Part shown: positions 1 through 64,000 of the stretch, in pieces
Numbering within the stretch: position 1 is the stretch's first letter
Layout: each line of letters opens with the position of its first letter
DNA from: Sipunculus nudus
Taxonomy: Eukaryota > Annelida > Sipuncula > Golfingiida > Sipunculidae
Reading direction: 5' to 3'
DNA: 64,000 nt
NCBI GenBank assembly: GCA_026874595.1
Contig: CM049318.1
Coordinates: forward strand, 25,632,956-25,696,955
The notes under the pieces: generated by a model
The model's database searches: none
Seen by the model: only the letters and a program-made list of their open reading frames with translations
What the model was told of the DNA's origin: nothing
Position numbers and translations under genes: made by a program

Positions 1-51
1 CTTCATCCCCGGGCATGTGCGTATCATTTGCTTCAGCATGAAAATAAAATT
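1..51 (-). CDS. LEFT gene MAM domain, exon b (cut by window edge)
   Basis: After a TTTCAG acceptor the minus strand reads FYFHAEANDTHMPGDE in phase 1 before the window ends. RIGHT has YYFQAEANDTDKPGDQ in the corresponding exon, and the motif Y-x-x-x-E-A ... P-G-D is the usual second block of a MAM domain. It confirms that LEFT continues with an intact MAM reading frame at least to the window edge. Confidence 0.8.
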
Positions 52-195
52 CTGAAATACAGAATTTAACACAAAGCTTTAACCTGGGCATAGCGTCAGG
101 GTATATAAATTGGGAAAGGCGAAGTGCAGAACAGCCTGCTTAATAAGATACTTTTCCCATAATTTCTTCGGGATGGATGAAATTAATGAAAATAC

Positions 196-336
196 CTGAT
201 TCTGATTCTGTAATTTGTCCGGTCCCGCTTGTATCTGATATACCAGACATCACTTGCCAAGAGTGAGTGCCGATTCCCAACGAAACAATATCGTCGCAGC
301 CAAATCGTCTTACTTCACAGCTGAGTATCCTGGAAC
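196..336 (-). CDS. LEFT gene MAM domain, exon a
   Basis: A 141-base, phase 1-1 exon (acceptor ATACAG, donor GTATTT). It reads SRILSCEVRRFGCDDIVSLG, then IGTHSWQVMSGISDTSGTGQ, then a short acidic end. The early Cys pair, the single Trp about 25 residues on and the S-x-T-x-GTG motif match the N-terminal part of MAM domains (C-x-F-E ... C ... W ... TGP). It aligns without gaps with the RIGHT exon at 63167-63313. The usual TGP-x-x-DHT is modified to TGQ. Confidence 0.75.
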
Positions 337-1475
337 CTGTATGGTACAACTTATCGTTTAAACAGATTAGTACAAATATTTCTTTATAAGGACAATATCA
401 ACCGTTCTTGGGGTTTGTATTTAAGACTACATGACTTGGAACTTGCTCTTGCTTATGGATTTAAATGCATATGTGCCAGTCTGCATATTAAAAAAATATT
501 TGCATGCAAAAGCCTGTCTAAAATGCCATTTCGTAATAAAGCGAATTTAAGCTTGCATCAGGAACAACCCTTTTCGTATTTAAATGCTTAAATGAAATAT
601 AGGATCTTCTGATTACCAATGACATGTAGACTATATATCAAACGACAATAGGATGATTTGAAAACTTGTACATTTAATAATGACACGTGGGTATGCAATG
701 CAGATGGCCATTACAAAAGAGACACATTTGCCTTGTTCCCAAGTGTCCACATCTAATTTTGATAAATATTTGATTAGGTTAATATGATCTTTCAGCAAAC
801 TTTTGTTATAATTTTTTTTTAATATGTTGAACACTCCACCGGGATAAACACTCGCTATATTTGCGTTCCTGATTTAATCATTTTCACTGTAGACTTCTCT
901 TTAAAGAGTCATCACCCTCCACATTTACAGTTATTATGTCAGAATGCTAACTTTTTCTCACAGCAATCCCTAAATAGTGAAATAACCTTATCAATATGTA
1001 TTATTAGAGCGCTACTCAGCACAATACGATCAGATGTGTACGACACAGACATGTCACTGTAACACGACAGAAAGCAAAGGCTAGACATGTTCAGTGTAAA
1101 GTATTATTTTTCTGATTTCAGAAAACACGAAATAGTAACGTTGCGTTCAACAATGATATTCAAACTACAACGATACATGCAAAAACAGACATGTCGATCT
1201 AAGGAATAAGGAGATGAAATACAGCAATTGCCATCGATAAAACAATATTCTAGTTAGTGAGCTCAAAGAAGGATCATTTTAAATATAAATCAATCTGGAT
1301 GAGTTTTTATTTTATTTTCTCCAAAATCATACTCTATTTTTTTAATCCAGCATATTAATAAAAAAAATTGAGGTTAAGAATAATGGCACAATTATATCTG
1401 AATTTATTTAATTCATACTAACTTGAACAGACACTCACGGACATAAAAATAAGATTTTTTTTTGGTGAAACTTAC
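337..1475 (-). other. Intron of LEFT gene
   Basis: Between the TSP1 and MAM exons of LEFT. AT-rich; I see no repeat family, microexon or RNA gene here. Confidence 0.5.
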
Positions 1476-1595
1476 AAGAATATTGGCATGGTGCTTTCTC
1501 TTCAAGCATAGTGTCATTACATCCTTTAGGGCAGTACCCCTTACGAATTCGGAATTGTCCGCCACAGCACGGGCCCCAAGGATTCCAAAAGACCT
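1476..1595 (-). CDS. LEFT gene divergent TSP1 exon
   Basis: A 120-base, phase 1-1 exon (acceptor TTTTGCAG, donor GTAAGT). In the spliced frame it reads VFWNPWGPCCGGQFRIRKGY, then CPKGC and an E-rich stretch ending in APCQYS. The W-x2-W-x2-C opening, basic middle and late C-x3-C and C pattern are those of a TSP1 repeat, but the canonical C-x3-C-G-x-G core is replaced by CCGG and only five cysteines are present. The RIGHT exon at 62318-62437 is homologous over its whole length. A longer frame in another phase crosses this exon but is not supported by RIGHT, where that phase has a stop. Confidence 0.75.
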
Positions 1596-1929
1596 CTGCA
1601 AAAGCAGAAAAAGAATAATAAGTGAATTATTGATAATGAACTATAAGGGTAAAAATACTTAAGGTCAGTTGATGTTAGCTATCCTTAGTTAATATGTAGT
1701 TTAATACTGCTAACTTCTGCCCCGCCGGACTGTTCATTTGGTTTACAGTGAATAAAAGGATAAATAATATTCACTTTTTTTTAAACAAGTCCACAACAAT
1801 CACGGATTATGCATCGACTTTGTATTTTATCGAATGTTATAGTATTGTAATTGAATTTGGTCAGGTACACTGGTAAACATTTTGTTAAATATCAAATTCT
1901 TCTTCTGTTCATAAAAAAGTTGCATTTAC

Positions 1930-1948
1930 CTCCGTCAGTTGTCTGTCT
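1930..1948 (-). CDS. LEFT gene microexon 4 (19 nt)
   Basis: A 19-base minus-strand exon between TTTTTTTGCAG and GTAAAT, phase 0-1, encoding RQTTDG plus the first base of the next codon. The RIGHT gene has a 19-base exon at 62068-62086 that starts with the same ten bases (AGACAGACAA) and encodes RQTRTT. Both are followed a few hundred bases later by the TSP1-like exon in phase 1. Confidence 0.75.
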
Positions 1949-3136: not shown

Positions 3137-3172
3137 CTTGCTTCGCGACCGTACTCCTCCCGACGGGCTACC
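3137..3172 (-). CDS. LEFT gene microexon 3 (36 nt)
   Basis: Minus-strand exon between AATACAG and GTAAAC, 36 bases, phase 0-0, encoding GSPSGGVRSRSK, a glycine/serine/arginine linker. The RIGHT gene has a 36-base exon at 60577-60612 encoding GGELGSGQSRVK with the same phase and about half of its bases identical. It joins the 34-nt exon to the 19-nt exon without disturbing the frame. About 14 kb of intron separates it from exon 2. Confidence 0.7.
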
Positions 3173-3560: not shown

Positions 3561-3596
3561 CGTGACTCCTGAATGTACTTCTCATGACGGGCCACA
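3561..3596 (-). pseudogene. Duplicate 36-nt microexon with in-frame stop
   Basis: Minus-strand ATAG acceptor, 36 bases, then GTGCGT. It is the same length as the functional microexon at 3137-3172 and shares roughly 23 of 36 positions, including GCCCGTC at the same offset. In the phase required by the neighbouring exons (0-0) it contains a TGA as its fifth codon. It is either a dead duplicate that is skipped or a poison exon. In the other phase (2-2) it would read VARHEKYIQES, which does not fit this transcript. Confidence 0.5.
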
Positions 3597-5279: not shown

Positions 5280-6850
5280 TGTAGACTGGTCCCCCCCCCG
5301 TATTTCGATTTTTTTATGCATTTTCTATATTTTTGAGACCTTCAATATGTGGTCATCTGTTAACAGGGTACGAATCATGACCTTTTGACCGAGATTCTTC
5401 CCACTTGAAATACCGGGAGGTCTATAAAGAGTCTCCATTGAAACCTTAAATTAGGTATGTGTAACCAATATCCTTTAAAGAATCCCCCCCCCCCCCGAAT
5501 AATTCAAATTTGACTCAAAAGCTTCAGTTTCTGCAAAACCAATGCTTTTATCACCATATTTCTTTGCATTCATATTCATCATAAATTGTTTCACCAGTTC
5601 CTCTAGACTGGTAGTGCCGACTGGATCTTTTTTGCATTTCTACGCATTTTTCTCTCCTGCAACGATGTTGTTCTCCTTTGACAGGGCACAATTGGCTACC
5701 ATAAGACCTAGAAACTTCTCACTTGACATCCTGAGAGACCCATGAAGAATCTCCCTAGGAACCTGATATTAGGTTGTTGTTACCAATAATCTTTGAACTG
5801 TTGGGATCAGAAATTCCCCTAGAATAATTAAAAAGTTGATACAAAAGCTCAAGTATCTGAACAACTAATACATTGATCAGCATGATTCTTTGCATGCACT
5901 TTCATTATTGAATGTTTGACCAGTTTCTACAGACTCGTGGTGCCACCTAGGTTTTTTTCTTAATTTTTACTTATTTTACTTTCTCTATTTTTGAGACCTT
6001 TCAAAGATGCGGTCGTCCGTTAACGGGGCAAAAATCGTAACCATTGGACCCCGAATCTTTTTACTTGACATCCGGGAAGGACCATGAAAATTCTCCTTTG
6101 AAACCAGAAATTAGGTCTCTGTTACCAATATCCTCTGAGCCATAGAGACCCCCTTCCCCCCTCCCCCCCCGAAAAATTAAAATTGTGTTACTAAGGCTCC
6201 AGTACCTGATCAACCAATGTATTGATCACCATGATTATTTGCATGCATATTCATTATGGAGTGTTTCATCAGTTCCTAGAGACTTGTGGCGCCACCTGGA
6301 TTTTTAAACATTTTTACGCATTTTCTTTTTTCTCTTTTTTTTGGGACCTTCAAACTATGTTTGTCCGTTAACATGACGCAAATCGTAACCATTGACCTAG
6401 AAATTTCTAACTAGACATCCCGGGAGGTCTGTGAAAAAAATCTCCTTTGAAACCTGATACTAGGTCTCTGTTCCCATATCCCTTGAGCTATAGGGCTTGT
6501 AATTACCCTAAGAATAATTAAAAATTAGATACAAAGGCTTCAGATTCTGAATAACTAATGCATTTATAACCATGATTCTTTGCATGCACTTTTTCATGGA
6601 GTATCCCATCAGTTCCTGCAGACAGGTGGCACCACCTGGATTTATTTTTCATTTTTACGCATTTTCTTTATTTTTTTTTTTAGACTTTCAAAGATACGGT
6701 CGTCCGTTAACAGGGAACAAATCGTAACCATTCTAGCCCAAATCATGACATCCAGATCGGTCCATGAAAAATCTCCTTTGAAACCTGAAATTACGTCTCT
6801 GTTACCCATTTCCTTTGAGCTATGCTCCAGCTGAATTGGGATACCAACTA
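5280..6850 (+). repeat. 340-bp tandem satellite array (about 4.7 units)
   Basis: A unit of about 340 bases repeats five times. The landmark 'TCCGTTAAC(A/G)GGG' and its variants occur near 5363, 5680, 6019, 6368 and 6707. Other shared blocks are CATGATTCTTTGCATGCA, CAGTTCCT..AGACT.GTGGTGCC and CCTTTGAAACC. Units differ by substitutions and by C-runs (5485, 6155), so the array is old. Open frames here are chance. Confidence 0.85.
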
Positions 6851-9850: not shown

Positions 9851-10163
9851 TTTTCAATATTCGCATACTGTCACCAGAGAACTGTGACTTAAGTGTTGTA
9901 TTGTATATTCTAGTAGGGAGTGTAACCAGATGATTGTTTTGATAATTTATTATACATTAATATGGAGTATCATGTTTAGGTATAAGCGTGAGATCTTTGG
10001 TTAAAAACAAGGTAAGTTTCAGGGCAGTTTGTTAAAAAGCACATATGTCTCGTTTGATGTTAATTTCCCTAGAGTTTGGTTCAGACTGGGCCGTCTTTTT
10101 TTTTGCGGTCTCTATAGTAACGAGTGTTTATCGTAGATTTAAAAGAAGGGTATATCACTAGGG

Positions 10164-11056
10164 ACAACAGGGCAACTACCCCTTGGACAATTACCCGCCG
10201 GACAATTACCCCCCAGACAACTACCCCCCGGACAATTACCCCCGGTACAATTACCCTCCGGACTAAAACCCCCTTGGAAAATTACCCCCATGGTATAAAT
10301 TACACATTTAAAGTACACTTTATACATTTAAATATATTCTGTGTTGCTTATGAGTAGCACAGAATGCCAAAGAAATAAATAAATTAATTTTAAACAAAAA
10401 ATAAAAAGAAAATCACCTAAGATAATAATATCATGCTATTACTTATCATGATATTACTTACAGAGACTTGAAAATATGTATCAGAATGAATGGTATTCCC
10501 TATTTGAATGAAATTATATTGTAAGCTTGCGCGTGGTTATATGGATCATGTGTTTACAAAGCTTTTGTTTTACAACTTGCCAATGTAAAGCATATTTCAT
10601 GTAATGGACTTTTTACCATATATTTACATTTTTTACAATACACAATACAGTCATCTTAGAGGCATTGCTTAGAACTAGAAAACAGCTACTGAAAACTTGA
10701 TGTAATGGATTTTTTTTCTATTTTTACAATACACATGATGTGTGTACCTATGCTTGGTTTGAAATATATTATCACCGGTATTTGTTTTACTTACAATCGG
10801 AATATTTTACTTTTAGTTTGTACAATGTGTACTTTTTAAAGTGTTGTTATACCATGGGGATAGTTGCCCGGGGGGTAGTTGTTAGGGGGGTAATTGTACC
10901 GGGGGATAATTGTCTGGGGAAAGTTGTCTGGGGGGTAGTTGTCCAAGGGGGAGATTGTCCTGGGGCTAATTGTCCGGGGGTTAATTGTCTGGGGGCAATT
11001 GTCCAGGTAGTAATTGTCGGGGGGCAATTATCTGGGAGGGTAGTTGTCCTAGAGCC
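10164..11056. mobile_element. Fold-back element with minisatellite inverted arms
   Basis: The direct repeat ATCACTAGGG occurs at 10154-10163 and 11057-11066. Inside, the left arm is a 14-bp minisatellite (GGACAATTACCCCC variants, 10164-10290) and the right arm is its reverse complement (GGGGGTAATTGTCC variants, 10855-11056). The inner flanks are also inverted: TACACATTTAAAGTACACTT at about 10300 against AATGTGTACTTTTTAAAGTG at about 10830. The unique centre, about 500 bp, is non-coding. The arrangement and a plausible 10-bp target duplication describe a fold-back transposon. Frames read through the arms give repetitive Pro/Thr or Gly/Val peptides and are not genes. Confidence 0.75.
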
Positions 11057-17974: not shown

Positions 17975-18008
17975 CTGTTCTTCATATTTCTTACCCACAT
18001 TAGTGTTT
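17975..18008 (-). CDS. LEFT gene microexon 2 (34 nt)
   Basis: Acceptor TTTTTTGTAG and donor GTAAGG flank 34 bases on the minus strand. Joined to exon 1 in phase 2 it completes a Gln codon and encodes NTNVGKKYEEQ, ending in phase 0. The RIGHT gene has a 34-base exon at 55940-55973 sharing about 24 of 34 bases and the same phase, encoding KATVGMNYEPQ. Conservation of length, phase and sequence between two loci on opposite strands argues strongly for a real microexon coding for a hydrophilic stalk just after the membrane segment. Confidence 0.75.
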
Positions 18009-18226: not shown

Positions 18227-18318
18227 TGGACGATAATCTGTTTCCATGAGCTTGTCCAGAGAATAGTACCAGCCAATACCAGGCAGAGCAGGATCAGGAG
18301 ATATGATCCCTTTCCCAT
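18227..18318 (-). CDS. LEFT gene exon 1: N-terminal signal peptide or type II anchor
   Basis: From the ATG whose first base is 18318 the exon encodes 30 codons plus two bases and ends at a strong donor (GTAAGT). The peptide begins MGKGSYLLILLCLVLAG, a basic start followed by about 16 hydrophobic residues, then a tryptophan-containing polar stretch ending in KQIIV. An in-frame ATG at 18330 lies four codons upstream, but the 18318 ATG sits in ACCATGG, a near-perfect Kozak context, so I prefer it. Whether the segment is cleaved or stays as a membrane anchor cannot be told from the sequence. RIGHT has a co-linear exon of exactly the same length and phase at 55570-55661. Confidence 0.75.
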
Positions 18319-23072: not shown

Positions 23073-23930
23073 TTAAAGACCAGATATTTTTGAGAATGAT
23101 GATAATAATTTCATGAGTTTAAATGCTGAATTTTCATCTCTAATTAGAGCTGTTAAGTCATCTGCGTTAAGTACGCATTTTAGAATATTCGTGTTATTTA
23201 AAGGGATTCCCTTAATTTGATTATTCTGTCGTATTTTCTCTGCTAATATTTCAATACAGATAATAAATATATATGGGGATAGTGGATCCCCTTGACGCAC
23301 TCCTCTCTCTACTAAGAAATAACCTGAGGAGTATCCATTGTTCATTATACATGAACTTATGTTAGTGTAAAAAAGTTTGACCCATGATATTAAATTTTCT
23401 CCAAAATTAAATAATTTCAAAACCTCTATCATATAATTCCATTCCAATGAATCAAAAGCTTTTTCAAAATCCACACTGAGAAGTATCCCTTGTTGATCTA
23501 TTATCTTAAAATATTCTATTGTGTCTAAAATTGTTCTAAATGCTTCCCCTATATATCTGCCTTTAATAAAACCATGTTGATCTGAACTAATAATTGAAGG
23601 TAGAGTTTTCTTTATTCTTTCTGCAATAACCTTGGATGCAATTTTATGGTCATTATTTAGAAGAGAAATTGGTCTCCAGTTTTTTATCAATAATCTGTCT
23701 TTACCTTTTTTATCAATAAGTGTTATCACAGACTGCTTTTGAGAGGGAGACATTTCCCCAAAATGAAGTGATTTATTCAATGTGTTAATAAGTAAAGGAC
23801 CTATTTTTTTCCAAAAATATTTATAAAATTCTATAGTTAATCAAACATTTCCGGGAGACATTATTTTTTAAAATATTTAATTATATTTTCACATTCTCCT
23901 TATGTTATTGGTCCCTAACATAGCTGTTTT
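23073..23930 (-). pseudogene. L1 ORF2 reverse transcriptase core
   Basis: An open stretch, 23780-23073, carries the RT blocks in order: IKNWRPISLLNNDHKIASKV, DQHGFIKGR, LLSVDFEKAFDSLEWNYM (first catalytic Asp), GVRQGDPLSPYIFI, and CVLNADDLTALI. The last block keeps the two catalytic Asp residues but has Asn where F/Y-A-D-D normally has an aromatic. Length is only that of the core; the frame breaks on both sides. L1 RT copies L1 RNA at the nicked target. Confidence 0.85.
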
Positions 23931-39559: not shown

Positions 39560-39831
39560 TTAATTAGATAGTTTTCTTGCTATTTTTTCATGTCTTTCGT
39601 TTAATCGAGCTTTAGAAAAATCCCCAACAAAAGAAAATCTGAATTTAAACGATACCATATGTGTTAGCAATAAAAGAAATATAAACATACAACAATCTGT
39701 AATGCTGCAAGAAGCAACATCAGTGTTGCTACCAACACACCGTGGTGCAGAGCATGCTCTAACTCTTTTTTTCTGACCTCCCCCACATGTTGCAGTACAT
39801 CCGGACCAAGTGCTCCAAGGACCATAGGTTC
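39560..39831 (-). CDS. MIDDLE gene TSP1 repeat 9 with possible read-through tail
   Basis: The TSP1 part, 39691-39831, is 141 bases: TYGPWSTWSGCTATCGGGQK then six cysteines in all, ending SITDC. A strong donor (GTATGT) follows in phase 1. If it is not used, the frame stays open for 42 more residues: CMFIFLLLLTHMVSFKF, a plausible membrane span, then a basic tail ending RKLSN and a stop at 39560. So the gene may end here as a membrane form or continue by splicing; no further exon was found to the left. Confidence 0.7.
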
Positions 39832-39947
39832 CTTCGAAGAAAGTGAAATTACTATTTCTAAGAAAAAAACGTGATGGCTTATAGTGGAACTGTGTTAACA
39901 ATCCCAATCCTTAAAATGCATGTTTTGGTAATTAGCCTTCCCAATAT

Positions 39948-39989
39948 GTTAAGAATGCCTGGACTATATGTTGCAATGACCGTAGGTTC
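39948..39989 (-). pseudogene. Truncated copy of the last TSP1 exon
   Basis: CAAAG then GAACCTACGGTCATTGCAAC, matching GAACCTATGGTCCTTGGAGC at the start of the next exon, but it reaches TAG after eight codons and lacks the later cysteines. A dead partial exon duplication about 160 bases upstream of its parent. Confidence 0.55.
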
Positions 39990-40319
39990 CTTTGATGGCA
40001 GTAACTCTAATATTCCTCAGAACCCTAATATAAAAGTCATCTTGTTAATCACCGACGCACTAAATAAAGAGTCGGGGGTGGGGGTGGGGGTGAAGCAGTA
40101 ATGGTTCTGATTAAACGGTCCCAAAACAAAATGAAAGATTTCATATGACCCTAAAGAGTTTTTATGTACTGTACTGAAGATGCATAACTGCCCGTGTCAA
40201 GAGATCACATTTTAGTGTCATTAATTTACAGACCAAATATAACAATTACTGTATCAGATTAGATCAAACTCTTCCTCATTGCCATCTTAAATTAATAATT
40301 TAATAATTTCCATGATTAC

Positions 40320-40460
40320 CTATGCATGCTGGCCTCCTACAAATATTTTTTCTCTCCCTTGGGCCGTTGCATGGTCCATCTCGGCACTCTCTTGTCTGGG
40401 TGTGAATACCTACTCCACAAGTCACGTCACATGACAAATTCCTCCATGCGGACCAGCTCG
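40320..40460 (-). CDS. MIDDLE gene TSP1 repeat 8
   Basis: 141 bases, phase 1-1. SWSAWRNLSCDVTCGVGIHT then REC, GPC, NIC and PAC. Acceptor TTTAAG is a little weak; donor GTAATC. Confidence 0.8.
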
Positions 40461-40692
40461 CTTAAATTGTGCATGATCGACAGTGTCAAAACAATGACCA
40501 CAACGAGACATAGTATATGCGTGTCTCTCAATTAATTTGTTTTTAAATCAATATGATTTTATAGCAAACACACTATTAAAAGAGTTATAACCATATTGAA
40601 CGTGAAGGGGCACTTTTCTGGTAGTTTTTTTTAAAACAGAGTCAATTTGCATAATAATGATAAAGATACAATTTCTGGGTATAGTGGCTTAC

Positions 40693-40830
40693 CACAAGGA
40701 TTTGATTTACAACTGTCCCACTGTGTGGTATAGTCGGAACATCTACCAGAAAGGCAGCGTCTGTATCGGGATCTCAGGTGTAGCCCACATTGCGGGCATA
40801 GAGTCCACTCCGACCAGACACTCCATATTA
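40693..40830 (-). CDS. MIDDLE gene TSP1 repeat 7
   Basis: 138 bases, phase 1-1. IWSVWSEWTLCPQCGLHLRS then RRC, GRC, DSC and NPC. The first two cysteines are only two residues apart (CPQC) instead of three, a departure from the TSP1 core that could change the disulphide layout. Confidence 0.8.
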
Positions 40831-41262
40831 CTGAAATAGTTTAATTCTATGTTTAATTCCCGTAATGCATCCTAAATTATGAAAAAAACACACTAATAAA
40901 TCATGTTCCTAATACATCATAGTTTTGTAATTTTTATCCGAAAGAACATTTTATTATCTTAATATATTCAAGAAAAACAATATAATCAAATAATAAATTG
41001 TATATATTTAACGTCACCATACAAACAAATTTATGCAATTTCATACAATACAAACGTTTAATCTTACTGCAAAAGATTACTACGAGGAGAATTAAATTCA
41101 TTAGTTTTTAAGAAAAATAATTGAAGCTCTCAATATAACACAAAGGTTTACCTATTACTAAATATACTAATTCTCCCACGCCATACTTACCTACACATCA
41201 AAGTAAGTATTACCTTATACCGTACTCTGTTCACGTTTTAATAAAGTAATTGAACTTATTAC

Positions 41263-41406
41263 CTGGACAGGAGTCCGGCGTCCCACATTCTCGCTGTTCA
41301 CGGTTATTTCCTTGACAACCACCTCCTGGGCAACTCCTTGTTCTGGCTGCTATGCCCAGATCACATGTCACAGAGCATGTCCAGCGAGACCAGCCAGTCC
41401 AAAGTC
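41263..41406 (-). CDS. MIDDLE gene TSP1 repeat 6
   Basis: 144 bases, phase 1-1. LWTGWSRWTCSVTCDLGIAA then RSC, GGC, REC and DSC. The usual CG after the second Cys is CD here. Acceptor TGCTAG, donor GTAATA. Confidence 0.9.
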
Positions 41407-41502
41407 CTAGCACATATGGAATGCATAAGTTACATTTCCTATTTCAAATATTTCACATGAATTATTTCCGAGGGGAAGATATCACGATATAATCATATTG
41501 AA

Positions 41503-41511
41503 TATATATAT

Positions 41512-41581
<70 letters not shown>
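41503..41581. repeat. (TA)n microsatellite
   Basis: Long TA tract in the intron between TSP1 repeats 5 and 6. Confidence 0.9.
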
Positions 41582-41585
<4 letters not shown>

Positions 41586-41725
41586 CGTATTCCGCCATTA
41601 CTGGTGATTGTGATTTGGATTCTAGAAATTAGGTTAAGTGCAAACATTCACCTTTTTGACCATTAAATGAGCGAAAGAGTAAGCAATAATAAAAAATGAG
41701 AAAATACGCTGGTTTCAAGAAACAC

Positions 41726-41866
41726 CTGGACATATTCTTGGATAACATGTGCGGCTCCGTGTATTTACTCCCTGGCAAATGTTTCCATGCAGACACTCCC
41801 TCTGTGATATTAATCTTCCTGTCCCACAGGAAACACTACATGTTCCATGTCGCCAGGCAGTCCATA
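41726..41866 (-). CDS. MIDDLE gene TSP1 repeat 5
   Basis: 141 bases, phase 1-1. WTAWRHGTCSVSCGTGRLIS then REC, NIC, RTC and RIC. The sequence W-R-H-G-x-C-S-V-x-C is shared with repeat 4, so the two are recent duplicates. Confidence 0.85.
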
Positions 41867-42015
41867 CTGTTAAGTATGAAGATAATATACTTATACTTCA
41901 CCTGATCAAGGACATATTTCCGACATTTTTACGTTGTGGACACTAGTAAACAAATTGAAATATATTATCATATGTTGATTTTCTCCAATATTTTTTGTGT
42001 GTGTGTGGAAGAGAA

Positions 42016-42050
42016 AGGTGTAAACTGTCCCTGCCAACATGCACTCCATA
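42016..42050 (-). pseudogene. Truncated TSP1 exon copy
   Basis: TTAACAG acceptor followed by TATGGAGTGCATGTTGGCAG, matching the first about 33 bases of the exon at 41726-41866 and its acceptor, then losing similarity in a TG-rich stretch. No donor or later cysteines. A dead partial exon duplication. Confidence 0.6.
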
Positions 42051-42668
42051 CTGTTAATTGGAAGAGAAAATGCTGTTCCTCATATAGGAGAGTGTACTTA
42101 AATCGAATATTTGACAGTTTTATGTTTTTCGCAATTTTGTGATGCAGAACCAATTAATCCAAATAGTCGTAAAGCCGGTTAAAGTAAACTGGTGATACAA
42201 ACACAATCTTATTTAATTCAATACATTCTGTGCGTTGAAAGATAGGGGGTGCCGGTTCACTTAGAGATTCTTTACTTCTTTCAATAGAACGTTTCAGCAC
42301 ACTAGAGACACTTTTCCAGGACTTCTAATTCTATAGAAAATAAGGGTATTATTTTTTTTTTTAATTGTAAACAGTAGCTTTTTGTCTGTAATGGTGAGGT
42401 AATTCCCAGACTCTAATGCATGTATCTGCATTCTCTGGGGAAAAAATCCAAGAACACAGAAAAAATCCAAGAACACAGGAAAATACTATTACAAGCATTC
42501 ATGTCTATTAAATTCAATGGGATAACATACAAGGATCAACATATAAATTATCGAAACAAATCAAATAATGGAAACATATACATATATCATTTCTAAACCT
42601 ATCATATGATTTTTAGCGAAGAGAAAAAATTTGATGTATTGGATACCCTAACCTATCGCTACTGTTAC

Positions 42669-42809
42669 CTGGGCAAAGTTGTCTATTGCATGTTTGCCTC
42701 AATGTACTTTCTCCCTTACAGGTGCTGCCATTCAGACATCGCCTTCTCTTTATTATCGAGCCCCCACCACACGTTACACTACACGGTCCATGACGCCACC
42801 CGCTCCATA
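42669..42809 (-). CDS. MIDDLE gene TSP1 repeat 4
   Basis: 141 bases, phase 1-1, spliced frame WSGWRHGPCSVTCGGGSIIK, then RRRC, STC, QTC and QLC. A plus-strand frame covers the region but is a shadow. Confidence 0.85.
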
Positions 42810-43063
42810 CTAAAGGTTCAAAATAAGCTAATGTGTAACATATACCCTATATTTATTCAAAAGTAAAATATATTTCATTAACAAGCGGTAGTAACGTATT
42901 CTTACAGATATATACCAGAAACTCTTCAAGACCAACCTGGTCTGTTATTTTGTATATGCAGAGATTTCTCTCTGGTAGATGTTTAAAAATAAACGACAAA
43001 AGAATTTTTTACCATTTGTTCAGCAAACGGTCATATGCTAATTATTATAATTGTTTTTCGTAC

Positions 43064-43207
43064 CTGGACATGAGTTTGGTATCCTACAAGGACGTCCTTC
43101 TGTTGCCTTGCCTTGGCATCCTCTTCCCTGGCATATCCTCGTTCTCTTAGCTGCTCCAACGCCACATGTCACTGAGCAAATCCATGACGACCATTGATTC
43201 CATACCC
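43064..43207 (-). CDS. MIDDLE gene TSP1 repeat 3
   Basis: 144 bases, phase 1-1. GVWNQWSSWICSVTCGVGAA, basic KRTR, then CQGRGCQG and two more Cys. Closely related to the exon at 41263-41406 (same length and the same CQG..GCQG and P-SCPG pattern), implying duplication. Confidence 0.9.
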
Positions 43208-44283
43208 CTGGGACATATGCATTGTTAGGCATTGTGTGATACACTATCAATATTTTCCAGCATCAGATGTGAAAAAATGTAATTTGCGTCTTCACATCCA
43301 TAAAAGTGGCATAGGTGACAGGGAAACATTTCATAAACAAAGTCGAAAATGTCATTATAAATCTTTGTTTCCCATGTAACACATCCGCCGATGCTTAATT
43401 CGAATATTAACTGAATAATTATTATACCTTTAGAGCATTGTACCGCCAATTGCCCATAGTCGTACTAATGACAGGTTAGGCGAAGGGTCAGATTAAGGTA
43501 AGATTTTCACATTTTTGTCATACACAGTTGAGTTACAGCTAACTGTAAAATTTGAAATGATATTCTCATATCGGTTGATTTGCATGGAAGGTGGCAAATA
43601 AATGTAAACAAAACAAAATAAATGCTCCAGTGTCCAGTTGTAATTTTTGGGTTATGAGGGAAAAAACAGCTAACTATTTTTTCCTGTGAACAGCATTATA
43701 TTAGATTGGATCAGCCACAAGGAGTATTTTTAAACACCAAACTTTTTTCATAACATTGTACTTGATGATTTTATGTTTAAGATAGTTGAAATGGTAAAAT
43801 ACCTAAAATACTTTCAAATGATCAGAAATCTATTTGCTTTCAATTTATTGAATATTGATAAATCACGGACCAGGGAGGCCTCTGTGTTTAAGTCATTGCT
43901 GAACAATTTTGGCCTTTCACAAGGCCTTGAGCTTAGAAATGTTCTCTTTTATGTTTACACCTGGGATATGTTGTTGTGAAATCGCATGTATTTCTCTTCA
44001 GCGAAACGACTGCAAAATGAGAATACTAGACAACAGTGTTTCTATTCTGATGTGCTCGCTCGTATTCAGTTAATGATTGAATGTCTTGCGGTAGCACTTT
44101 ATATGATGATATAAAATACCACATGTCATGTTTATATATGTCATGTTCTTTAAATTTAACGTTTGATTAAGAGCCTACATGAATGGACATATTTTCTCAG
44201 ATAAGGTATTCTACCAGATTCATACCTGTTATTAAAATTTTGTCAAATATTCAAGGGTACAACTATCTATTGTAACGACTAAC

Positions 44284-44424
44284 CTGAACAGGTTGTTTGA
44301 GAACATTTTGTGATTCTCTTGCTTATCCCTCGACAGGAGGTACCGCTCACGCACCGTCTCGTCATAACTGACAAGCCAGTCCCACAGGTCACACTGCAGG
44401 GTTCTGCATGCCACGCACTCCATG
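44284..44424 (-). CDS. MIDDLE gene TSP1 repeat 2
   Basis: 141 bases, phase 1-1. WSAWHAEPCSVTCGTGLSVM then RRC, TSC, TKC and TTC, six cysteines in TSP1 spacing. Follows the MAM domain after a 270-base intron. Confidence 0.85.
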
Positions 44425-44695
44425 CTATCAAAATATACAAAAGAAGCTGAATGTTCAGTCAATGTTAAACTGCGCTGTAATTTACTATCTCAAGCCTGGG
44501 CAAAGTTCCGGGATGATTTAATGTGTTATGACAATCATCATGCATGTATTCAGTCCAAACATTATATTTGAAGCCTTGATAAATACATGTATTATGTTAA
44601 TAATTAAAACATGACAAAAGCAGAAATGAAAAGCATATTCAAGCGTACATTGTTTTACTAACAGGCGTCAGGCACTTAGGAGTATATTTATTTAC

Positions 44696-44845
44696 CGTTG
44701 ACACATGGTTTTAAGGATATGTCATCAAGAGCAATGTCCCCTTGTGGTCGTCCAGTAGATATTGCTTTGAACATTACCGAAAAAGATCTACCAAAGGTAA
44801 CCGAAATTCTTTCCTCATTCTCAAACCAGTTCCGGCCTTGGTCTC
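44696..44845 (-). CDS. MIDDLE gene MAM domain exon c
   Basis: 150 bases, phase 1-1. DQGRNWFENEERISVTF is followed by GRPQGDIALDDISLKPC, the C-terminal MAM block (G-D-I-A-(L/I)-D-D-I ... C). Completes the domain. Confidence 0.9.
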
Positions 44846-45075
44846 CTGAGCAAAAAGGAACCATTATGGATAGTGAACAAGATCAGCTAAAGCAAATTAA
44901 GAAACACATTGCATCCTTATATTAGTAAGCTTGTCATGTTTAAGAATCACCTATTCCCATTCATGCTGGTGTTAATTTGTTTACGTTAAGTTTTTTTTAA
45001 TATTTCAAATCAATTATCAACGGATGTCAAACCATTTTGCCTAATTACAGTAGAGCATATTGATTGAATTCCTAC

Positions 45076-45270
45076 CAGTTATGTGGAACAGCGTTACATT
45101 GGTATTGGTCTGATTAATATTCAAAATAACTTCAAGAACTCCGATGTCATCCCCATACATATGGTACCAAAAACTCAAGCAATATGCAGAGAATATCGAT
45201 ATGACTGGAGGGTAGATCTGAACGGTTGCAGTAAACTCCTGGAATCCAGCGTCGATGTAGAGGAACTTGC
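45076..45270 (-). CDS. MIDDLE gene MAM domain exon b
   Basis: 195 bases, phase 1-1, intact. Reads KFLYIDAGFQEFTATVQIY, then AYCLSFWYHMYGDDIGVLEV and an Asn/Thr-rich end with sequons. C-L-S-F-W-Y-H-M-Y-G-x-x-I-G-x-L is the most conserved block of MAM domains. Confidence 0.9.
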
Positions 45271-45404: not shown

Positions 45405-45541
45405 CTGGCTTGTCCCAGTTTGTGTGATCACCACGAGGACCAGTACCAGATGTACCTGACCACCCCGTATCCATGTAGACTGACTTATATTATCAGTTTT
45501 TAGGAAAGCACAATCAGACTCAAAGTTACAAAAGAATCCAT
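45405..45541 (-). CDS. MIDDLE gene MAM domain exon a (one-base frameshift)
   Basis: Starts in phase 1 as DGFFCNFESDCAFLKTDNIS then STWIR; the conserved continuation GWSGTSGTGPRGDHTNWDKP is present but in another frame. The exon is 137 bases where phase 1-1 needs 138, so one base is missing at or near the CGGGG run at about 45462-45466. The MAM motif TGP-x-G-DHT is clear. Either the gene carries a real deletion or the assembly has a homopolymer error. Confidence 0.75.
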
Positions 45542-46193
45542 CTGTAAACGTGCAGGAGAACAAAATATTGTCAATATGAAACAAATGACATTTTTTATCA
45601 CGTACACTAACTTTCATCTGCCGTTTCCAAATAGGTTTAATTTGGCCAAATAAGTGTGTGCATAAACTATACATTCCTATAAAGTAGACCTAGAGTATAC
45701 TCAATTTTATCACGTGCACTAACTTTCATGTGCCGTTTCCAAATAAGTTAAATTTTGCAAAAGAAGTGTTTGCATAAACTATACATCGCTTTGATATTTT
45801 TATGTAAAATCAAATAAAGGGAAAAGATAATTACTTTCAAATGGTCCGGTCGTCTAGCATTTTGCGTAATGATATTATTGTAAACGTAATATGTTGTTTA
45901 ACAAATATATTACTACCAGAGTCCACCTTATGGATAATGTAATTAATGTACAATAATAATAAAATTTTAAATAAATCACATCTTCCTTTGTGATAATGAT
46001 CAGTGTCAAATTTACTATATCCTGTAAAACAGGAAAACAGGGGAAAAATTATTTGCATATCTTTTTCTTAAATTGTATGTGTGGTTAAATGTACACGGTA
46101 TCCGAAAAAGCGAAAACACAATGAAGTAAAAGATCAGTGCAACCCTAATATGATATAAAATTTAATATATGCGGTAATGTGCAAAGTTACTAC

Positions 46194-46331
46194 CATTACA
46201 AATTGTCAATACGCAAGCCTTGGTTTCCATTCGTCTGTCATTACAAGGTGAGACTCGACAATCTTCCGAACGTTCCTGCCAACCTGTCCCACATGAACGG
46301 GAACACTTACTCCATCGTCCCCAAGATGAAG
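46194..46331 (-). CDS. MIDDLE gene TSP1 repeat 1
   Basis: 138 bases, phase 1-1. Reads SSWGRWSKCSRSCGTGWQER, then six cysteines in total with EDC, SPC, KAC and TIC. W-x2-W-x2-C-x3-C-G-x-G is the TSP1 signature, carrying the tryptophan that is C-mannosylated in the family. It sits directly before the MAM domain, as in LEFT and RIGHT, but is a canonical repeat. Confidence 0.85.
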
Positions 46332-46774
46332 CTGCTTTGGCAATTGGCAAAAATTATATTTATGGTATTAACACACATTTAACACATACCGTTTTTATCA
46401 TATAAATAAATACGTATAAATCCTATTGAAAGTTAAAATGTTAAATCTATTTTAAAATAGAATATGAGATTTTTAAAAATGACACAGAAAGGAAACAATA
46501 GCAAGTCTAACTTCATCATACGCCTTCCCAATATATTTATATAACTCTGTAGTGCTCTGCAAAAATTCTAAAATTTAGAATTATCAAATAATGCCCCTTT
46601 GGTATAAAATGGTTTAAAAGTAATACATATAGCCTACCTTTACAGTTGTTCTGTGCAAAAGTACTTAAGTATATTGAAGTATATGAATGGGCATGGAGAA
46701 CGTTAATTATGTGACTGCGGGCCATGATATTATATATCAAATACAACCCAAATATATTCTGAAATGGGACTAAC

Positions 46775-46811
46775 CTGCAAGGAATTCAGTTCTGTTAACG
46801 TCACTTGCCGC
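46775..46811 (-). CDS. MIDDLE gene microexon (37 nt)
   Basis: Flanked by CTTTACAG and GTTAGT, phase 0-1, encoding AASDVNRTEFLA plus one base. It leads in frame into the TSP1 exon at 46331, the same junction phase as the 19-nt exons of LEFT and RIGHT. It contains an N-R-T glycosylation sequon. Confidence 0.65.
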
Positions 46812-47065: not shown

Positions 47066-47093
47066 CTCTACATGATACTCTCTTCTTGGATAA
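47066..47093 (-). CDS. MIDDLE gene microexon (28 nt)
   Basis: Flanked by TTTTTAG and GTAAGA. In phase 2-0 it encodes YPRREYHVE, a charged stalk segment placed like the 34-nt exon of LEFT and RIGHT. The phase fits the next microexon. Confidence 0.6.
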
Positions 47094-48120: not shown

Positions 48121-48772
48121 TCAATAAACTAACATTTATTTGCACTCTATGGGTGTTCCACGAATCAAGAATATCTTCTGGACCAGTTTCGAGGAGGGAC
48201 ATAATTTGGGCACAACATATATGCCTGCTTGTTTCGCATTTCTCACCTGGGTGTGGTAGTTGTAGTAGCTTCACTTTTCCCCAGAAAATCGATGTCACAA
48301 GTCAATAGGAAATGGGCGATCAGCAAAAAAATGAACATGATATAGGTCCTCCGGGAAATGTTTACAGTCGTGTCTGTTTTGTTCAGTACCTGGTGTATAC
48401 TTTTTATCTGATCAAAAGATCAGCAGCTACTTAGTTAAATATAGATATCCCATGTTAAACGAAATGACACGCTTATTATAGAGAATGAATATTTAGAGCA
48501 TGAACTCGTATGGCATAATTATTGCATGAATGAACAGTATGAGTGCCAAGCATTTTCAGATGGCAATAGGCTCCTCGCGTTTGATCATATCTGCATCTGG
48601 TTAGCACAGCTAACATTATAGGTACCAAATATTTGTCAAATTGGTATTCTACAAATTTGCGCCCCATTCATTCTTAAAACGTTATCCATGTTTGATTTAG
48701 TTCTATGCTTAAATAAATGTTTTAAGGAAGGGAAACTCACTCCTTGTCAAAGGCAAGCAGTTGTGACCTTAA

Positions 48773-49309
48773 TTGAAAAAACAGGTAAATATAATCGCTT
48801 ACTATCATCTTGGAGACCTATCAGATATGGCGAATCGTATCAGAGCAGTTCTCCCAAATATAATAAATACGGATCAGACAGCCTTTGTGCCCGGTCGGAA
48901 TATAAATGAAACAAATAGAATAATTTGTGATATTGTTAACTACTGTATCCAAGAAAATAAGCCACATATACTGTTCGCAGTGGATTTTGCAGCTGCATTT
49001 GATTCGATAGGTCATAATTATTTGTTCGGTGTGTTAGAAAAGTTTGGCTTTGGAGAAAGTTTTATCGGATGGGTCAAACTCCTCCATACAGATATTCAAA
49101 GCTGTATTATAAATAACGGTTATACAACAGGTTACATAAAAGTGGCAAAGGGGACTAGACAAGGGGATCCTCTAGCGCCGTACCTGTTTGTATTAGCTAT
49201 TGAAATATTGGCAATAATGGTACGCAAATCTGTTGATATAAAAGGAATTACTATTAACGGGAACGAGATAAAACAATGTATATTTGCGGTATTACCACGT
49301 ATTTTCTAA
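48773..49309 (+). pseudogene. L1 reverse transcriptase core missing the catalytic A-x-D-D block
   Basis: Blocks present: DQTAFVPGRNINETNRII, ILFAVDFAAAFDSIGHNYLF (first catalytic Asp), KGTRQGDPLAPYLFVLAIEI, and KGITINGNEIKQCIFA. At that point the other copy reads CVLNADD, but here the text breaks into VLPRIF and a stop, so about 20-25 residues with the Asp pair are deleted. Confidence 0.8.
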
Positions 49310-49318
49310 AATACTGTT

Positions 49319-50323
49319 TTGAAGAAATTCACGAGATTATCATCAGTCCAAGTGAATCAGGATAAATGTGAAGCCGCATGGATGGCAAAGTATGTTATTA
49401 ATGAAACCTTAGACGGTTTCAAATGGGTTGACTTGACAACAGATGCATTGAAAATCCTTGGATTATGGTATAACAATGACAAGAACTTATCGAACATGTT
49501 AAATTTCAATAGAGTGCTTGGAAAAATGAGAACACTTTTAAACATATGGAAACAACGTTCCTTGACTATATTTGGTAGAAATACGATTTTAAAGACTTTA
49601 GGAATTTCAAAACTTACTTATAAAACCAATGTTTTAGGACCACCGAAAGAATTCATCAAATTAGTAAAATACGTGATGACAGAATTTATATGGAAAGGGA
49701 GAAAACCAAAAATAAAATATAATGTCATGATTAGTGGTAATGATAATGGGGGTATCAGGATGCCTGATCTTGAAACGTCCATAGAAACACAAAGATTAAT
49801 GTGGATTAAGAAAATCATTTCTGAGAATACCGAAAAATACTCTGTAATACCTAACTTTTATTTAAAATCGTTTGGTGGCATAAGAAATATTGGTAGTAAT
49901 ACTGACCCTGTAGTATTCAGAGGAGGACTACCCGATTTTTATAGGCGCAGTTTTCACATATGGCAGTCCTATACCTCAGGAGAACCTTTTCTGGTTAAAA
50001 CTGTTTTATCACAACAACTCTGGAATAATAAATATATTAAGATTGGAGGCAAGTCGGTTTACTTTCGATATTTTGATGAACTTGGTATAAAATATATATA
50101 TGATTTGTATAATATAAGTGGTGAAAAAAGGAAATTAGGTGAAATCATGTCGAAGGACCGCAGAAATTATTGTAATTTTTACATACACTGGATGGCATTG
50201 CGAACAGCTATCCCCAAAAAATGGGTAAATATGATTGATGACCAAGGTATAACATCTAGGGATATGTTAGTACAAGAGCGTAATTGCTTTCAAAGATGTT
50301 ATTTTAGATTTGAAGAAAGATAA
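49319..50323 (+). pseudogene. L1 ORF2 thumb/C-terminal region
   Basis: A 334-codon open stretch after the deletion. It begins LSSVQVNQDKCEAAW (block E of RT), then IFGRNTILKTLGISKLTY, EFIWKGRKPKIKYNVM, GGIRMPDLETSIETQRLMWI and PFLVKTVLSQQLWNN, all typical of L1/Tx1 ORF2 after the RT domain. The unusual length of intact frame suggests a fairly young insertion. Confidence 0.8.
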
Positions 50324-55569: not shown

Positions 55570-55661
55570 GTGGGAAGAGGTTCGTTACGCACCGTCGTGC
55601 TATACCTGATACTGCCTGGCTCCTTTGTCTGGGCAAGCCTGCCAATGAAGATCACGTTTCA
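55570..55661 (+). CDS. RIGHT gene exon 1, start codon replaced by GTG
   Basis: Read in the phase that fits the next exon, 30 codons plus CA precede GTAAGT: VGRGSLRTVVLYLILPGSFV, then WASLPMKITF. It aligns codon for codon with LEFT exon 1 (G-x-G-S ... L-x-L-x-L-x-G ... W-x-S ... Q), with GTG at the position of the preferred LEFT ATG. The in-frame codons upstream reach TGA at 55555. A 79-codon frame starting at 55497 in another phase overlaps it but does not splice into the next exon. Confidence 0.6.
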
Positions 55662-55939: not shown

Positions 55940-55973
55940 AAAGGCAACTGTGGGTATGAATTATGAACCACAG
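55940..55973 (+). CDS. RIGHT gene microexon 2 (34 nt)
   Basis: TTTGCAG acceptor, GTAAGG donor, phase 2-0, encoding KATVGMNYEPQ; homologue of the LEFT exon at 17975-18008. Confidence 0.75.
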
Positions 55974-60576: not shown

Positions 60577-60612
60577 GGTGGTGAATTGGGATCAGGGCAA
60601 TCGCGAGTTAAG
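60577..60612 (+). CDS. RIGHT gene microexon 3 (36 nt)
   Basis: TTGATTTAG acceptor and GTTAGT donor around 36 bases, phase 0-0, encoding GGELGSGQSRVK. Ends CGCGAGTTAAG, against CGCGAAGCAAG in the LEFT exon at 3137-3172. Confidence 0.65.
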
Positions 60613-60829: not shown

Positions 60830-62060
60830 ATACAATGGTTTTCTTTTCTGAGTTGTGAGGTATTAGGTAGGAAATTATTGGTTGGAATGACCTCTTTTCT
60901 TTCTCAACAACTTTGCGTCTCATTTCAACAACTACACGCAAAAAAATATGCGAATGGGTTGATAATAGATGGATGATTGGGGCTCATTCAATTTTAAACA
61001 CAGATCCTGAAGACCACGACAAAACATCTCTACCAGTTATGCTACCAGACCCCTTTATTCAGAATACTCAGACATTCGTAAGGTTGACGCGTAAAGTGTG
61101 GGTGTGATTTCCAGTCGGAGATAAATGCGTTATGTTAATTTTGAAGCTGAATTGCCAGACACGGATAACTGCATGATGCTGGTTTTAAATACACGTGAAA
61201 TCTCTGATAAATAGTGTAAATTAATTGTCGGAAGATCCCGTGCCCTCTGAATTAAATATTAAATGGCGGAAGCAGAAATACTTATTGATTATTAAAAAAA
61301 TGTCTTGGTAATGCATGCTTTAGCATCCTTAGGGAGTATGCAATGAAAACGGAATGTATACGGGAGATGCTCCACCATTTGCTGTAAATCTCTCACCTTA
61401 TGTTAAATTAACTTTCGTGAAAAGGTTGCCTATTTGTTTTGAGAATTATTGTAAGTGATTAATGGTCTGATATTCCGATATGAAATAACTCACAAAAACG
61501 TGATTGCAAATGGTGTTGAATAATATACGACATTAGGTTTAAATGAAGCCTTATGATTCTGAACAGGCCTATTCTGCTTTTATAGGAAAGACGGATCATT
61601 GTTCATGTGATAAAATGTTCCCCGTCTTTCGTTGCGATCAAAAAATTTATGTTGCTGATAAAAGTGTTTGTGATTAAGAGGAATATAGTTATGAAAAATC
61701 AAGAAAGTAACTTGCTACGACGCTCCTCATCAAGCATGGCCGGGTGAAGGCTGTCCCGGAGAAATCTGTATACTAGGCCTTGCCAAATAGGGTCCGTTGG
61801 CAATGCCCTGAGAATGTCTCAAATATAGGCCTCATGTTGAGAAGCTAGCAAGGTGAGGGTGTGCAGCGTCTATGTGTTAGTGTTTATAACATTTTATGAT
61901 GCACGGTAGGGGGTAAAATACCAGGTATTATTTTCTAAAATGCTTGAATGGTTAAGGATTTAATGTTCCACCTTAACAAGAATAACAATCCCCACACTCA
62001 AAGTTTTCAACATTTTACCAGGCTTTGGAAGAGCTTAAACAGAACATTTTTATTTCTTTC
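60830..62060 (+). other. Intron of RIGHT gene
   Basis: No element recognised. A 15-base segment at 61065-61079 has splice-like borders (TTTATTCAG / GTAAGG) but LEFT has no counterpart. Confidence 0.35.
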
Positions 62061-62067
62061 TTTCTAG

Positions 62068-62086
62068 AGACAGACAAGGACCACAG
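62068..62086 (+). CDS. RIGHT gene microexon 4 (19 nt)
   Basis: TTTCTTTCTAG acceptor, GTAAGT donor, phase 0-1, encoding RQTRTT. Homologue of LEFT 1930-1948. Confidence 0.75.
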
Positions 62087-62317
62087 GTAAGTGCAGTTTT
62101 ATCAATTGATAACAGGAAAGTTTGTGTATGATGTCTTAACCTGCATAAATGAATGTGTGACTAAAGTAAGTAAGGTACATAATTGCAAATGTTAACTATC
62201 TATAATTTGTTGTCCATGTGATTTCGGGAATAAGCTAACAGAGAATCGCCAGTTTTCTCTTTATGAAATTCTTCTAGCTCATTCTCAACAACTCATTATT
62301 CGTATCTGCTTTTACAG

Positions 62318-62437
62318 AAATCTTTTGGAATCATTGGCGCCCGTGCTATGGCGAAGATTTCCGAAGACGTGTTGGATATTGTCATCACGGTTGCGATAGG
62401 CCGTTGATAGAAGAAAGAGAACCATGTCCATTTTCAT
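62318..62437 (+). CDS. RIGHT gene divergent TSP1 exon
   Basis: 120 bases, phase 1-1: IFWNHWRPCYGEDFRRRVGY then CHHGC and an acidic end REPCPFS. Homologous to LEFT 1476-1595; only four cysteines remain and the C-x3-C-G core is gone, so the fold may rest on fewer disulphides. Confidence 0.75.
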
Positions 62438-63166
62438 GTAAGTATAAAAAAAAATATTCCATGAGTAGGCGTTTATTATGGTCACATTTCATGCAGATAA
62501 AATTGTTTTCTTCTAAAGCCGATTTAAATTACCTGAATATTACATTGACCTATTTGCTACCAAATCGCTTCATGTTTATGACTCGACCCCTATTTGAGGG
62601 CAGTAATGGGAATATGATTTTATCTAAAGTTATGGATTTATTTTCAGCTCACTTCCTCTGTTCGACTACGACTTGTTATAGTTTCTGACTCTTTGAAAAT
62701 TGAATTGAATTGGTATTGACTTTGATTCAACTGCATGCAACGCCACTTCTCTTTCTTTTTTACCTAAATCAGGATAATAACATAATACAGTGAATGTCCC
62801 TGCCATTAGCTACCTGCATTGCTACAGTATTAGTATTTTCAGATTGCTTTTTCAACTTACATTAAGAATCCGAACTCATCATTATTGTTTTGTCAAAAAA
62901 ATCTTGACTCTTACACATTTATTATTAGATGCTCTGCAAATAGAGAAACTGCTGTGCTGGGTGTTGGGTTTTCTTGTACAGAAGTATACAATCAAACTAA
63001 TTGATTTCGCCAAGAACGCCATATTGGCGAGCGTGGATCCCGATTTATTAAAATTATTCCTAAGATTGATAATAGCAAAAAGCATAATGTGATCTTATAT
63101 CAAACCTGGTAGTAGAGATTTTTGTCCGTGGCCATTGAATATAAGATGACAATTTGTACTATTTAG

Positions 63167-63313
63167 GCAGTGCGATACTAAACTGTGATGTAGTAGGATT
63201 TGGCTGCGACGAAATTGTTTCACTGGGAATCGGCGATCACTCTTGGACAGTGCATTTTGGTAAATCAGATACAGCTGGAACCGGACAGACCGATCAAACA
63301 GGAAACATATTAA
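63167..63313 (+). CDS. RIGHT gene MAM domain exon a
   Basis: 147 bases, phase 1-1: SAILNCDVVGFGCDEIVSLG, then GDHSWTVHFGKSDTAGTGQ. Aligns with LEFT 196-336. The conserved Cys pair, Trp and GTG motif identify the MAM N-terminal block. Confidence 0.75.
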
Positions 63314-63604
63314 GTATGTATATGTAAACATTTTATTCATCCGAAGTATTCATGGAAAGGTTGTGCGGGTTTGATAGGATGAAAAATTGTTCCAAAGTAA
63401 TACACCACAACGTGACTCCGGGTTTACAACTTTTCTGTTTGAATTTGTTTAATCCTGTTTTACTGACTATTATCTTCATCTTTAAATTATACACCCAAGC
63501 ACGAGGTTCAGGCTATTCTGCACTATGTCTTTTACCTGTTTATACTCAAAGTCTCAACTTTGCGCGATTCTGGGGTTTTTACTTTGTGCTATTCTGCTTT
63601 TCAG

Positions 63605-63798
63605 AATATTATTTTCAAGCAGAAGCAAACGATACAGACAAGCCCGGGGATCAAGCAGTAATGAGGAAAAAGAAATTCATGGGAATAAATTCAATTATTG
63701 TCTAACATTTCGTTACCTGATGAACGGTGACCATATCGGAAGACTTCTTGTGAAATGGAACACTACGACACGTGTTGAAACTATCTTCGAATTAACAG
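63605..63798 (+). CDS. RIGHT gene MAM domain exon b (one-base frameshift)
   Basis: Starts YYFQAEANDTDKPGDQAVM in phase 1 and ends, in a different frame, with NYCLTFRYLMNGDHIGRLLV and FELTG before GTAACA. The exon has 194 bases; MIDDLE exon b has 195. The missing base lies between about 63655 and 63690, most simply in the A-run at 63667-63671. The block C-L-T-F-x-Y-x-M-x-G-x-x-I-G-x-L is the MAM core. Confidence 0.75.
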
Positions 63799-63964
63799 GT
63801 AACAGATCAAATCTATTGCTATGTGTCATAGAAGGAACTTTTACGGAAAATATAAACTATAGAATAAATTGTAGAACGAAGTATAGAACTGTTCATAGCT
63901 TTGTGTTAAATATATATATAAAATGTGGTATGGCCCATGTAAGTCTGTAGTTGAAGCGAAGGTT

Positions 63965-64000
63965 AGGATAAACAGTGACACCTTTTAGATAGACTAACTA
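63965..64000. mobile_element. MITE-like inverted-repeat element, copy 3 (cut by window edge)
   Basis: AACAGTGACACCTTTTAGAT then AGACTAACTA matches the terminal repeat of the copies at 8970 and 19457. The other end lies outside the window. Confidence 0.5.

Follow-up and report, generated by a model that had tools for sequence, protein, structure and literature searches.

A microexon leader shared by two inverted genes was analysed in a 64,000-nucleotide (nt) stretch of the Sipunculus nudus genome (C13:25632956-25696955; hereafter the window), which has a GC content of approximately 35% and belongs to an assembly of 1.43 Gb in 153 contigs. Three genes are considered: LEFT on the minus strand, RIGHT in mirror orientation on the plus strand, and MIDDLE on the minus strand between them. 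On balance, LEFT probably encodes a secreted TSP1-like/MAM protein that begins with a leader composed of a signal peptide and a propeptide, the latter specified by microexons of 34, 36 and 19 nt, and RIGHT, as assembled, is probably a decaying inverted duplicate of it. A propeptide ending in a furin-type site is the best fit to the leader and not a demonstration of cleavage.

An earlier note on this DNA had described exons of 92, 34, 36, 19 and 120 nt with the same phases in LEFT and RIGHT, followed by MAM exons, and all of these were located in both genes (Table 1). The 120-nt and MAM exons were detected by blastp comparison of open frames on the minus strand of LEFT and the plus strand of RIGHT, the microexons by a scan for AG-exon-GT pairs together with blastn between the two genes, and the 92-nt first coding exon was read from the sequence upstream of the microexons. 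Phases are identical in both genes: the 92-nt exon ends in phase 2 and is followed by the exons of 34 nt (2 to 0), 36 nt (0 to 0), 19 nt (0 to 1) and 120 nt (1 to 1). The splice sites are kept between LEFT and RIGHT, and the frame of the leader, joined as the predicted splicing would join it, is open in both. The LEFT leader reads MGKGSYLLILLCLVLAGTILWTSSWKQIIVQ (signal-like), NTNVGKKYEEQ, GSPSGGVRSRSK and RQTTDG-E; after its signal-like exon, the RIGHT leader reads KATVGMNYEPQ, GGELGSGQSRVK and RQTRTT-E. The long introns reported within the leader were also found, the LEFT intron between the 34-nt and 36-nt exons measuring 14.8 kb.

Comparison of LEFT with RIGHT supports the earlier proposal that the microexon leader is conserved. 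In 200 dinucleotide shuffles, where the best same-length pair of each shuffle was set against the observed identity, none was as good as the 34-nt pair (26/34 identical) and none as good as the 19-nt pair (13/19 identical). The 36-nt pair ranked second among 4184 pairs that had lengths of 15-120 nt, were divisible by three and were open in phase 0 in both genes. Over residues 31-60 of the leader, 14 of 30 positions are identical. A pattern taken from the 19-nt exon and its flanking junctions matched the whole 1.43-Gb genome at two places, LEFT and RIGHT only; as it was derived from these same two sites, the result shows that there is no other site and is not an independent discovery. The backward control of this pattern matched once in the whole genome. 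A second copy of the LEFT 36-nt exon at 3561-3596 was rejected as a chance similarity; it contains a TGA in phase 0 and its surroundings are not duplicated.

R-X-K-R is the usual furin-type site. It is present in both leaders and is split exactly at the junction of the 36-nt and 19-nt exons, as RSK|R in LEFT and RVK|R in RIGHT. Both genes thereby carry the proprotein-convertase substrate motif R-X-[KR]-R between the signal-like part, recognised by eye, and the mature part. The longest block retained between the leaders, S-R-x-K-R-Q-T, lies across this junction with six of its seven positions identical, and it is this block that suggests a cleaved propeptide. Among candidate exons, an R-x-[KR] ending was found in 10 of 560 in LEFT and in 1 of 192 in RIGHT, the latter being the 36-nt exon. 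According to the interpretation favoured here, the 92-nt exon of LEFT would encode the signal peptide (by eye) and the three microexons a propeptide of approximately 25-30 residues, to be followed by a cysteine-rich TSP1-like module, a MAM domain and, probably, consecutive TSP1 modules. The 36-nt exon would supply R-X-K and the opening codon of the 19-nt exon the last R of the site, and a Golgi proprotein convertase cutting there would leave Gln as the mature N-terminus. The product would be a secreted protein of several domains, of the adhesion or matrix kind.

The 36-nt exon is frame-neutral, and a direct join of the 34-nt to the 19-nt exon stays in frame, as the earlier note had stated. Omission of the 34-nt or the 19-nt exon, singly or together, leads to a frameshift, and these two exons must therefore be included. 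Leaving out the 36-nt exon in frame would remove the furin-type site. It is conceivable, though rather improbable, that the N-terminal propeptide is removed or retained according to whether this exon is spliced in. The leader had previously been understood as a stalk of changeable length. A related explanation, that it is a flexible spacer before the first module, with its length set by skipping of the 36-nt exon and its basic residues incidental, would agree with the in-frame join and with the different leader length of MIDDLE (28 plus 37 nt), which has no R-X-K-R. We consider it unlikely, since SRxKRQT is the longest block kept across both leaders and few candidate exons end in R-x-[KR]; the stalk is thus not the best reading, and the same block points to a cleaved propeptide instead.

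Several results weigh against the propeptide interpretation. The 36-nt pair (21/36 identical) was equalled in 15 of the 200 shuffles, and in an unrestricted scan of lengths 15-200 nt between the 34-nt and 19-nt exons, comprising 155,923 pairs, it was not among the 15 pairs listed, of which 10 were AT-repeat matches. The ratio of nonsynonymous to synonymous substitution rates (dN/dS) between LEFT and RIGHT was 1.10 for the microexons (30 codons), and the whole leader therefore shows no sign of purifying selection. When the 29 observed differences were placed randomly, R-X-[KR]-R was kept in 8.8% of the trials and in 10.3% of those that stayed open; given 14 identical residues of 30, the chance of all three basic positions being identical is 0.09. 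Retention of the site, taken alone, is thus only mildly unexpected. The dN/dS values, together with the partial reading of the TSP1 exons of LEFT, make the protein-level case slightly thinner, and the leader of RIGHT, should this gene be a pseudogene, has in part drifted. Ratios for the remaining exons were 0.48 for the signal exon (ungapped), 0.37 for the TSP1-like exon, 0.96 for MAM exon 1 and 0.26 for MAM exon 3. As dN/dS differs by exon, some parts of the pair were constrained during a portion of their history, and others show no sign of it.

The earlier picture of an intact LEFT/RIGHT pair did not survive. RIGHT has a GTG where LEFT has its ATG, with no in-frame ATG upstream within the same open stretch, and MAM exon 2 of RIGHT, as assembled, is one base shorter than that of LEFT, placing its halves in two frames and in two separate genome-search matches. 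MAM exon 1 of MIDDLE is also frameshifted, with halves in different frames, as is a plus-strand TSP1 exon at 84.7 kb. The leader and MAM exons of LEFT showed no lesion, nor did five further TSP1 exons on the LEFT strand (5 of 23 were read), and LEFT is accordingly described as one intact-looking gene, judged from its exons. These observations were weighed for two further explanations. One is that the stretch is mostly a decaying tandem family, that the likeness of the leaders is residue of the duplication and that none of the three genes is expressed with these exons. The GTG and the frameshifts in RIGHT, in MIDDLE and at 84.7 kb fit this explanation, as do the ratios of the microexons and of MAM exon 1; the lesion-free exons of LEFT, the constraint in the signal, TSP1-like and third MAM exons and the kept splice sites argue against it, and we regard it as quite doubtful. 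The other explanation attributes some or all of the frameshifts to insertion or deletion errors in the assembly, so that MIDDLE and perhaps RIGHT would be intact, and is compatible with the best explanation of LEFT. Since the MAM shifts of MIDDLE and RIGHT lie in or beside short runs (GGGG, AAAAA), assembly error is possible for these two; the change from ATG to GTG in RIGHT is, however, a substitution, and the shift at 84.7 kb lies outside any single-base run. This explanation has an appreciable chance but is not the likelier one, and the frameshifts of RIGHT and MIDDLE may possibly reflect either decay or assembly error. In the best explanation, RIGHT is an inverted copy of LEFT that keeps its exon plan and lacks the ATG.

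Domain assignments were made against Pfam. The MAM family (PF00629, cut-off 26.4 bits) was matched by LEFT with 85.3 bits (E 5.1e-24), by MIDDLE with 102.4 bits (E 2.9e-29) for a chain joined across its MAM frameshift, and by MAM exon 3 of RIGHT with 33.9 bits. TSP_1 (PF00090) was matched by MIDDLE with 114.7 bits (E 2.1e-33) in eight stretches, above the cut-off; the chain scanned held one module before MAM and seven after it, the exon at 40694 being left out. The earlier note called LEFT and RIGHT TSP1-MAM genes, which would make their 120-nt exon a TSP1 domain, and this assignment had to be weakened. The first module of LEFT gave no Pfam TSP_1 match at E<=10 when the LEFT chain was scanned, and a TSP1 profile from which both 120-nt exons had been excluded gave an E-value of 0.23 for LEFT and no match for RIGHT. 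An AlphaFold2 model of the LEFT exon was uninformative, with a predicted local distance difference test (pLDDT) score of 47.8. The exon is only TSP1-like, by its W-x-x-W-x-x-C start and its cysteines.

TSP1 exons continue beyond both edges of the window. With a TSP1 profile that included some of the exons found, 23 further matches with E<0.01 were obtained on the minus strand to the left of the window (-2.0 to -36.0 kb) and nine on the plus strand to its right (66.2-86.9 kb), the counts being per strand; the next plus-strand TSP1-MAM-TSP1 set follows the nine at 88.1-94.4 kb. MAM exon 3 and the TSP1 exons on the LEFT strand lie outside the window. LEFT and RIGHT look poor in TSP1 because the window ends before these flanking arrays, and MIDDLE can no longer serve as the TSP1-expanded contrast to them. 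The plus-strand run also contains a tandem duplication with an offset of 9.3 kb (approximately 65.5-74.7 kb versus 74.7-84.0 kb), in which open-frame pairs with 30 or more aligned residues, 147 in all, showed 82-100% identity (median 98%).

A protein search of the genome with the 120-nt exon gave low E-values only for LEFT and RIGHT, two other places having E-values of about 1. The MAM chain of LEFT was 54-78% identical to RIGHT, depending on the piece, and at most 44% identical to every other place in the genome. Within the sensitivity of these searches, the parts of the leader that they covered (120 nt and 19 nt) thus appear to be a feature of one duplicated pair and not of the whole family. 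Inspection by eye revealed no convincing microexon leader upstream of the next TSP1-MAM set on the right (86.7-88.3 kb), nor in two stretches of the 18.7-Mb cluster of C13. The genes around the leader look like an ordinary tandem family that is partly decaying; the exon measurements of the earlier note are real, and its gene-level picture is overstated. Related LINE-type reverse-transcriptase-like stretches, recognised by eye and 49% identical over 153 residues, were observed at 23073-23840 (minus strand) and 48773-50323 (plus strand), upstream of LEFT and RIGHT and in mirror orientation. Their long open frames suggest two separate insertions.

MIDDLE is probably a more distant member of the family with a leader of its own. 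Its arrangement of one TSP1 exon, MAM and then eight TSP1 exons was located as previously described. The 28-nt and 37-nt microexons ascribed to it are present with splice sites and frame, and lack a comparator from which conservation could be judged: blastp comparison of open frames found no stretch similar to its 92/28/37-nt leader in LEFT or RIGHT. R-X-K-R is absent from this leader. The acceptor before the first TSP1 exon of MIDDLE (46332-46338, minus strand) reads AAAGCAG and contains two AGs; as these are 3 bases apart, either keeps the frame.

Table 1. Positions of the exons of LEFT, RIGHT and MIDDLE within the window
Feature	Position	Strand	Remarks
LEFT first coding exon, 92 nt	18227-18318	-	ATG; hydrophobic, signal-like MGKGSYLLILLCLVLAGTILWTSSWKQIIV + CA; donor GTAAGT; signal peptide by eye
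LEFT 34-nt microexon	17975-18008	-	phase 2 to 0; NTNVGKKYEEQ
LEFT 36-nt microexon	3137-3172	-	phase 0 to 0; GSPSGGVRSRSK; C-terminal R-S-K
LEFT 19-nt microexon	1930-1948	-	phase 0 to 1; R-QTTDG; codon 1 completes R-S-K-R
LEFT 120-nt cysteine-rich TSP1-like exon	1476-1595	-	phase 1 to 1; 21/40 residues identical to RIGHT
LEFT MAM exon 1	196-336	-	open-frame comparison, Pfam MAM
LEFT MAM exon 2, part in window	1-51	-	approximately 145 nt more beyond position 1
RIGHT counterpart of 92-nt exon	55570-55661	+	GTG at the position of the LEFT ATG
RIGHT 34-nt microexon	55940-55973	+	KATVGMNYEPQ
RIGHT 36-nt microexon	60577-60612	+	GGELGSGQSRVK; C-terminal R-V-K
RIGHT 19-nt microexon	62068-62086	+	R-QTRTT; completes R-V-K-R
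RIGHT 120-nt TSP1-like exon	62318-62437	+	open-frame comparison with LEFT
RIGHT MAM exon 1	63167-63313	+	comparison with LEFT
RIGHT MAM exon 2	63605-63797	+	1-nt frameshift relative to LEFT
MIDDLE first coding exon, 92 nt	48247-48338	-	MFIFLLIAHFLLTCDIDFLGKSEATTTTTP + AG; no comparator
MIDDLE 28-nt microexon	47066-47093	-	phase 2 to 0; splice sites and frame only
MIDDLE 37-nt microexon	46775-46811	-	phase 0 to 1; splice sites and frame only
MIDDLE first TSP1 domain	46195-46326	-	Pfam TSP_1
MIDDLE MAM exon 1	45418-45542	-	halves in different frames
MIDDLE MAM exon 2	45074-45265	-	Pfam MAM
MIDDLE MAM exon 3	44703-44843	-	Pfam MAM
MIDDLE eight downstream TSP1 exons	39689-44425	-	at 44285, 43065, 42670, 41727, 41264, 40694, 40321 and 39689

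MAM is a common domain in this genome, with at least 149 matches (150 of 314 candidates scored). Double-MAM stretches were observed at C1:43557382-43558332 and C4:48749736-48750689, each in an uninterrupted frame of approximately 1290 codons, and none of the remaining matches, among those listed, lay in an open frame longer than 197 codons. For C1q (PF00386), at least 141 matches were found genome-wide (150 of 203 candidates scored). The annelid linker family PF16915 yielded no match, a result that is not evidence of its absence. In the window, a C-rich minisatellite of 15-bp units at 10155-10289 has an inverted G-rich counterpart at 10855-11005, approximately 570 bp away, and a repeat of approximately 340 bp forms about four tandem copies at 5311-6823, with inverted relatives at 34.7-35.3 kb. 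Neither a tRNA nor an Rfam family reaching its gathering score was found in the window.

Microexons and TSP1 and MAM modules are known kinds of thing; what is new here is an R-X-K-R site split at the junction of the 36-nt and 19-nt exons. No description of this microexon leader was found in the open-licence full-text literature on TSP1, MAM, microexons and furin sites, within the passages retrieved. As it stands, the leader is a small architectural curiosity within a large, partly decaying tandem family. Should transcripts of LEFT confirm it, gene models without the three short exons, which extend over approximately 16 kb, would lack the true N-terminus, and splicing could be coupled neatly to protein processing by a protease site shared between two microexons.

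Parts of this arrangement are known from other systems. In the mussel Limnoperna fortunei (PMC5836269), TSP_1 is among the expanded binding domains, a likeness to the expansion of TSP1 modules seen here; neither a microexon leader nor a TSP1-MAM order is described in the pertinent passages of that paper, and 'MAM' occurs 0 times in its main text. Skeletal organic matrix proteins of corals (PMC4890752) likewise contain MAM or TSP1 modules and are extracellular proteins of invertebrates, but in the proteins covered by the pertinent sections MAM accompanies LDL-receptor repeats, TSP1 occurs beside VWA or mucin4, and a TSP1-MAM chain with a microexon leader is not among them. The adhesion GPCR Gpr126, as presented in the relevant part of PMC6954182, resembles LEFT in having a large extracellular region, which is alternatively spliced, and the words furin and microexon occur in that text 23 times and once, respectively; it is, however, a receptor and not a TSP1-MAM protein, whereas in LEFT the putative furin-type site lies in the presumed N-terminal propeptide and is split over two microexons. 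The micro-exon genes (MEG) of schistosomes, as characterised in the corresponding passages of PMC10526429, come closest in exon style among known systems and share with the genes described here the short exons, the long introns and the association with secreted proteins. MEG genes consist mainly of exons of 3-81 bp, whereas the TSP1-like and first MAM exons measure 120-147 nt here, and the three microexons, only one of them frame-neutral, form only a leader before larger TSP1/MAM exons.

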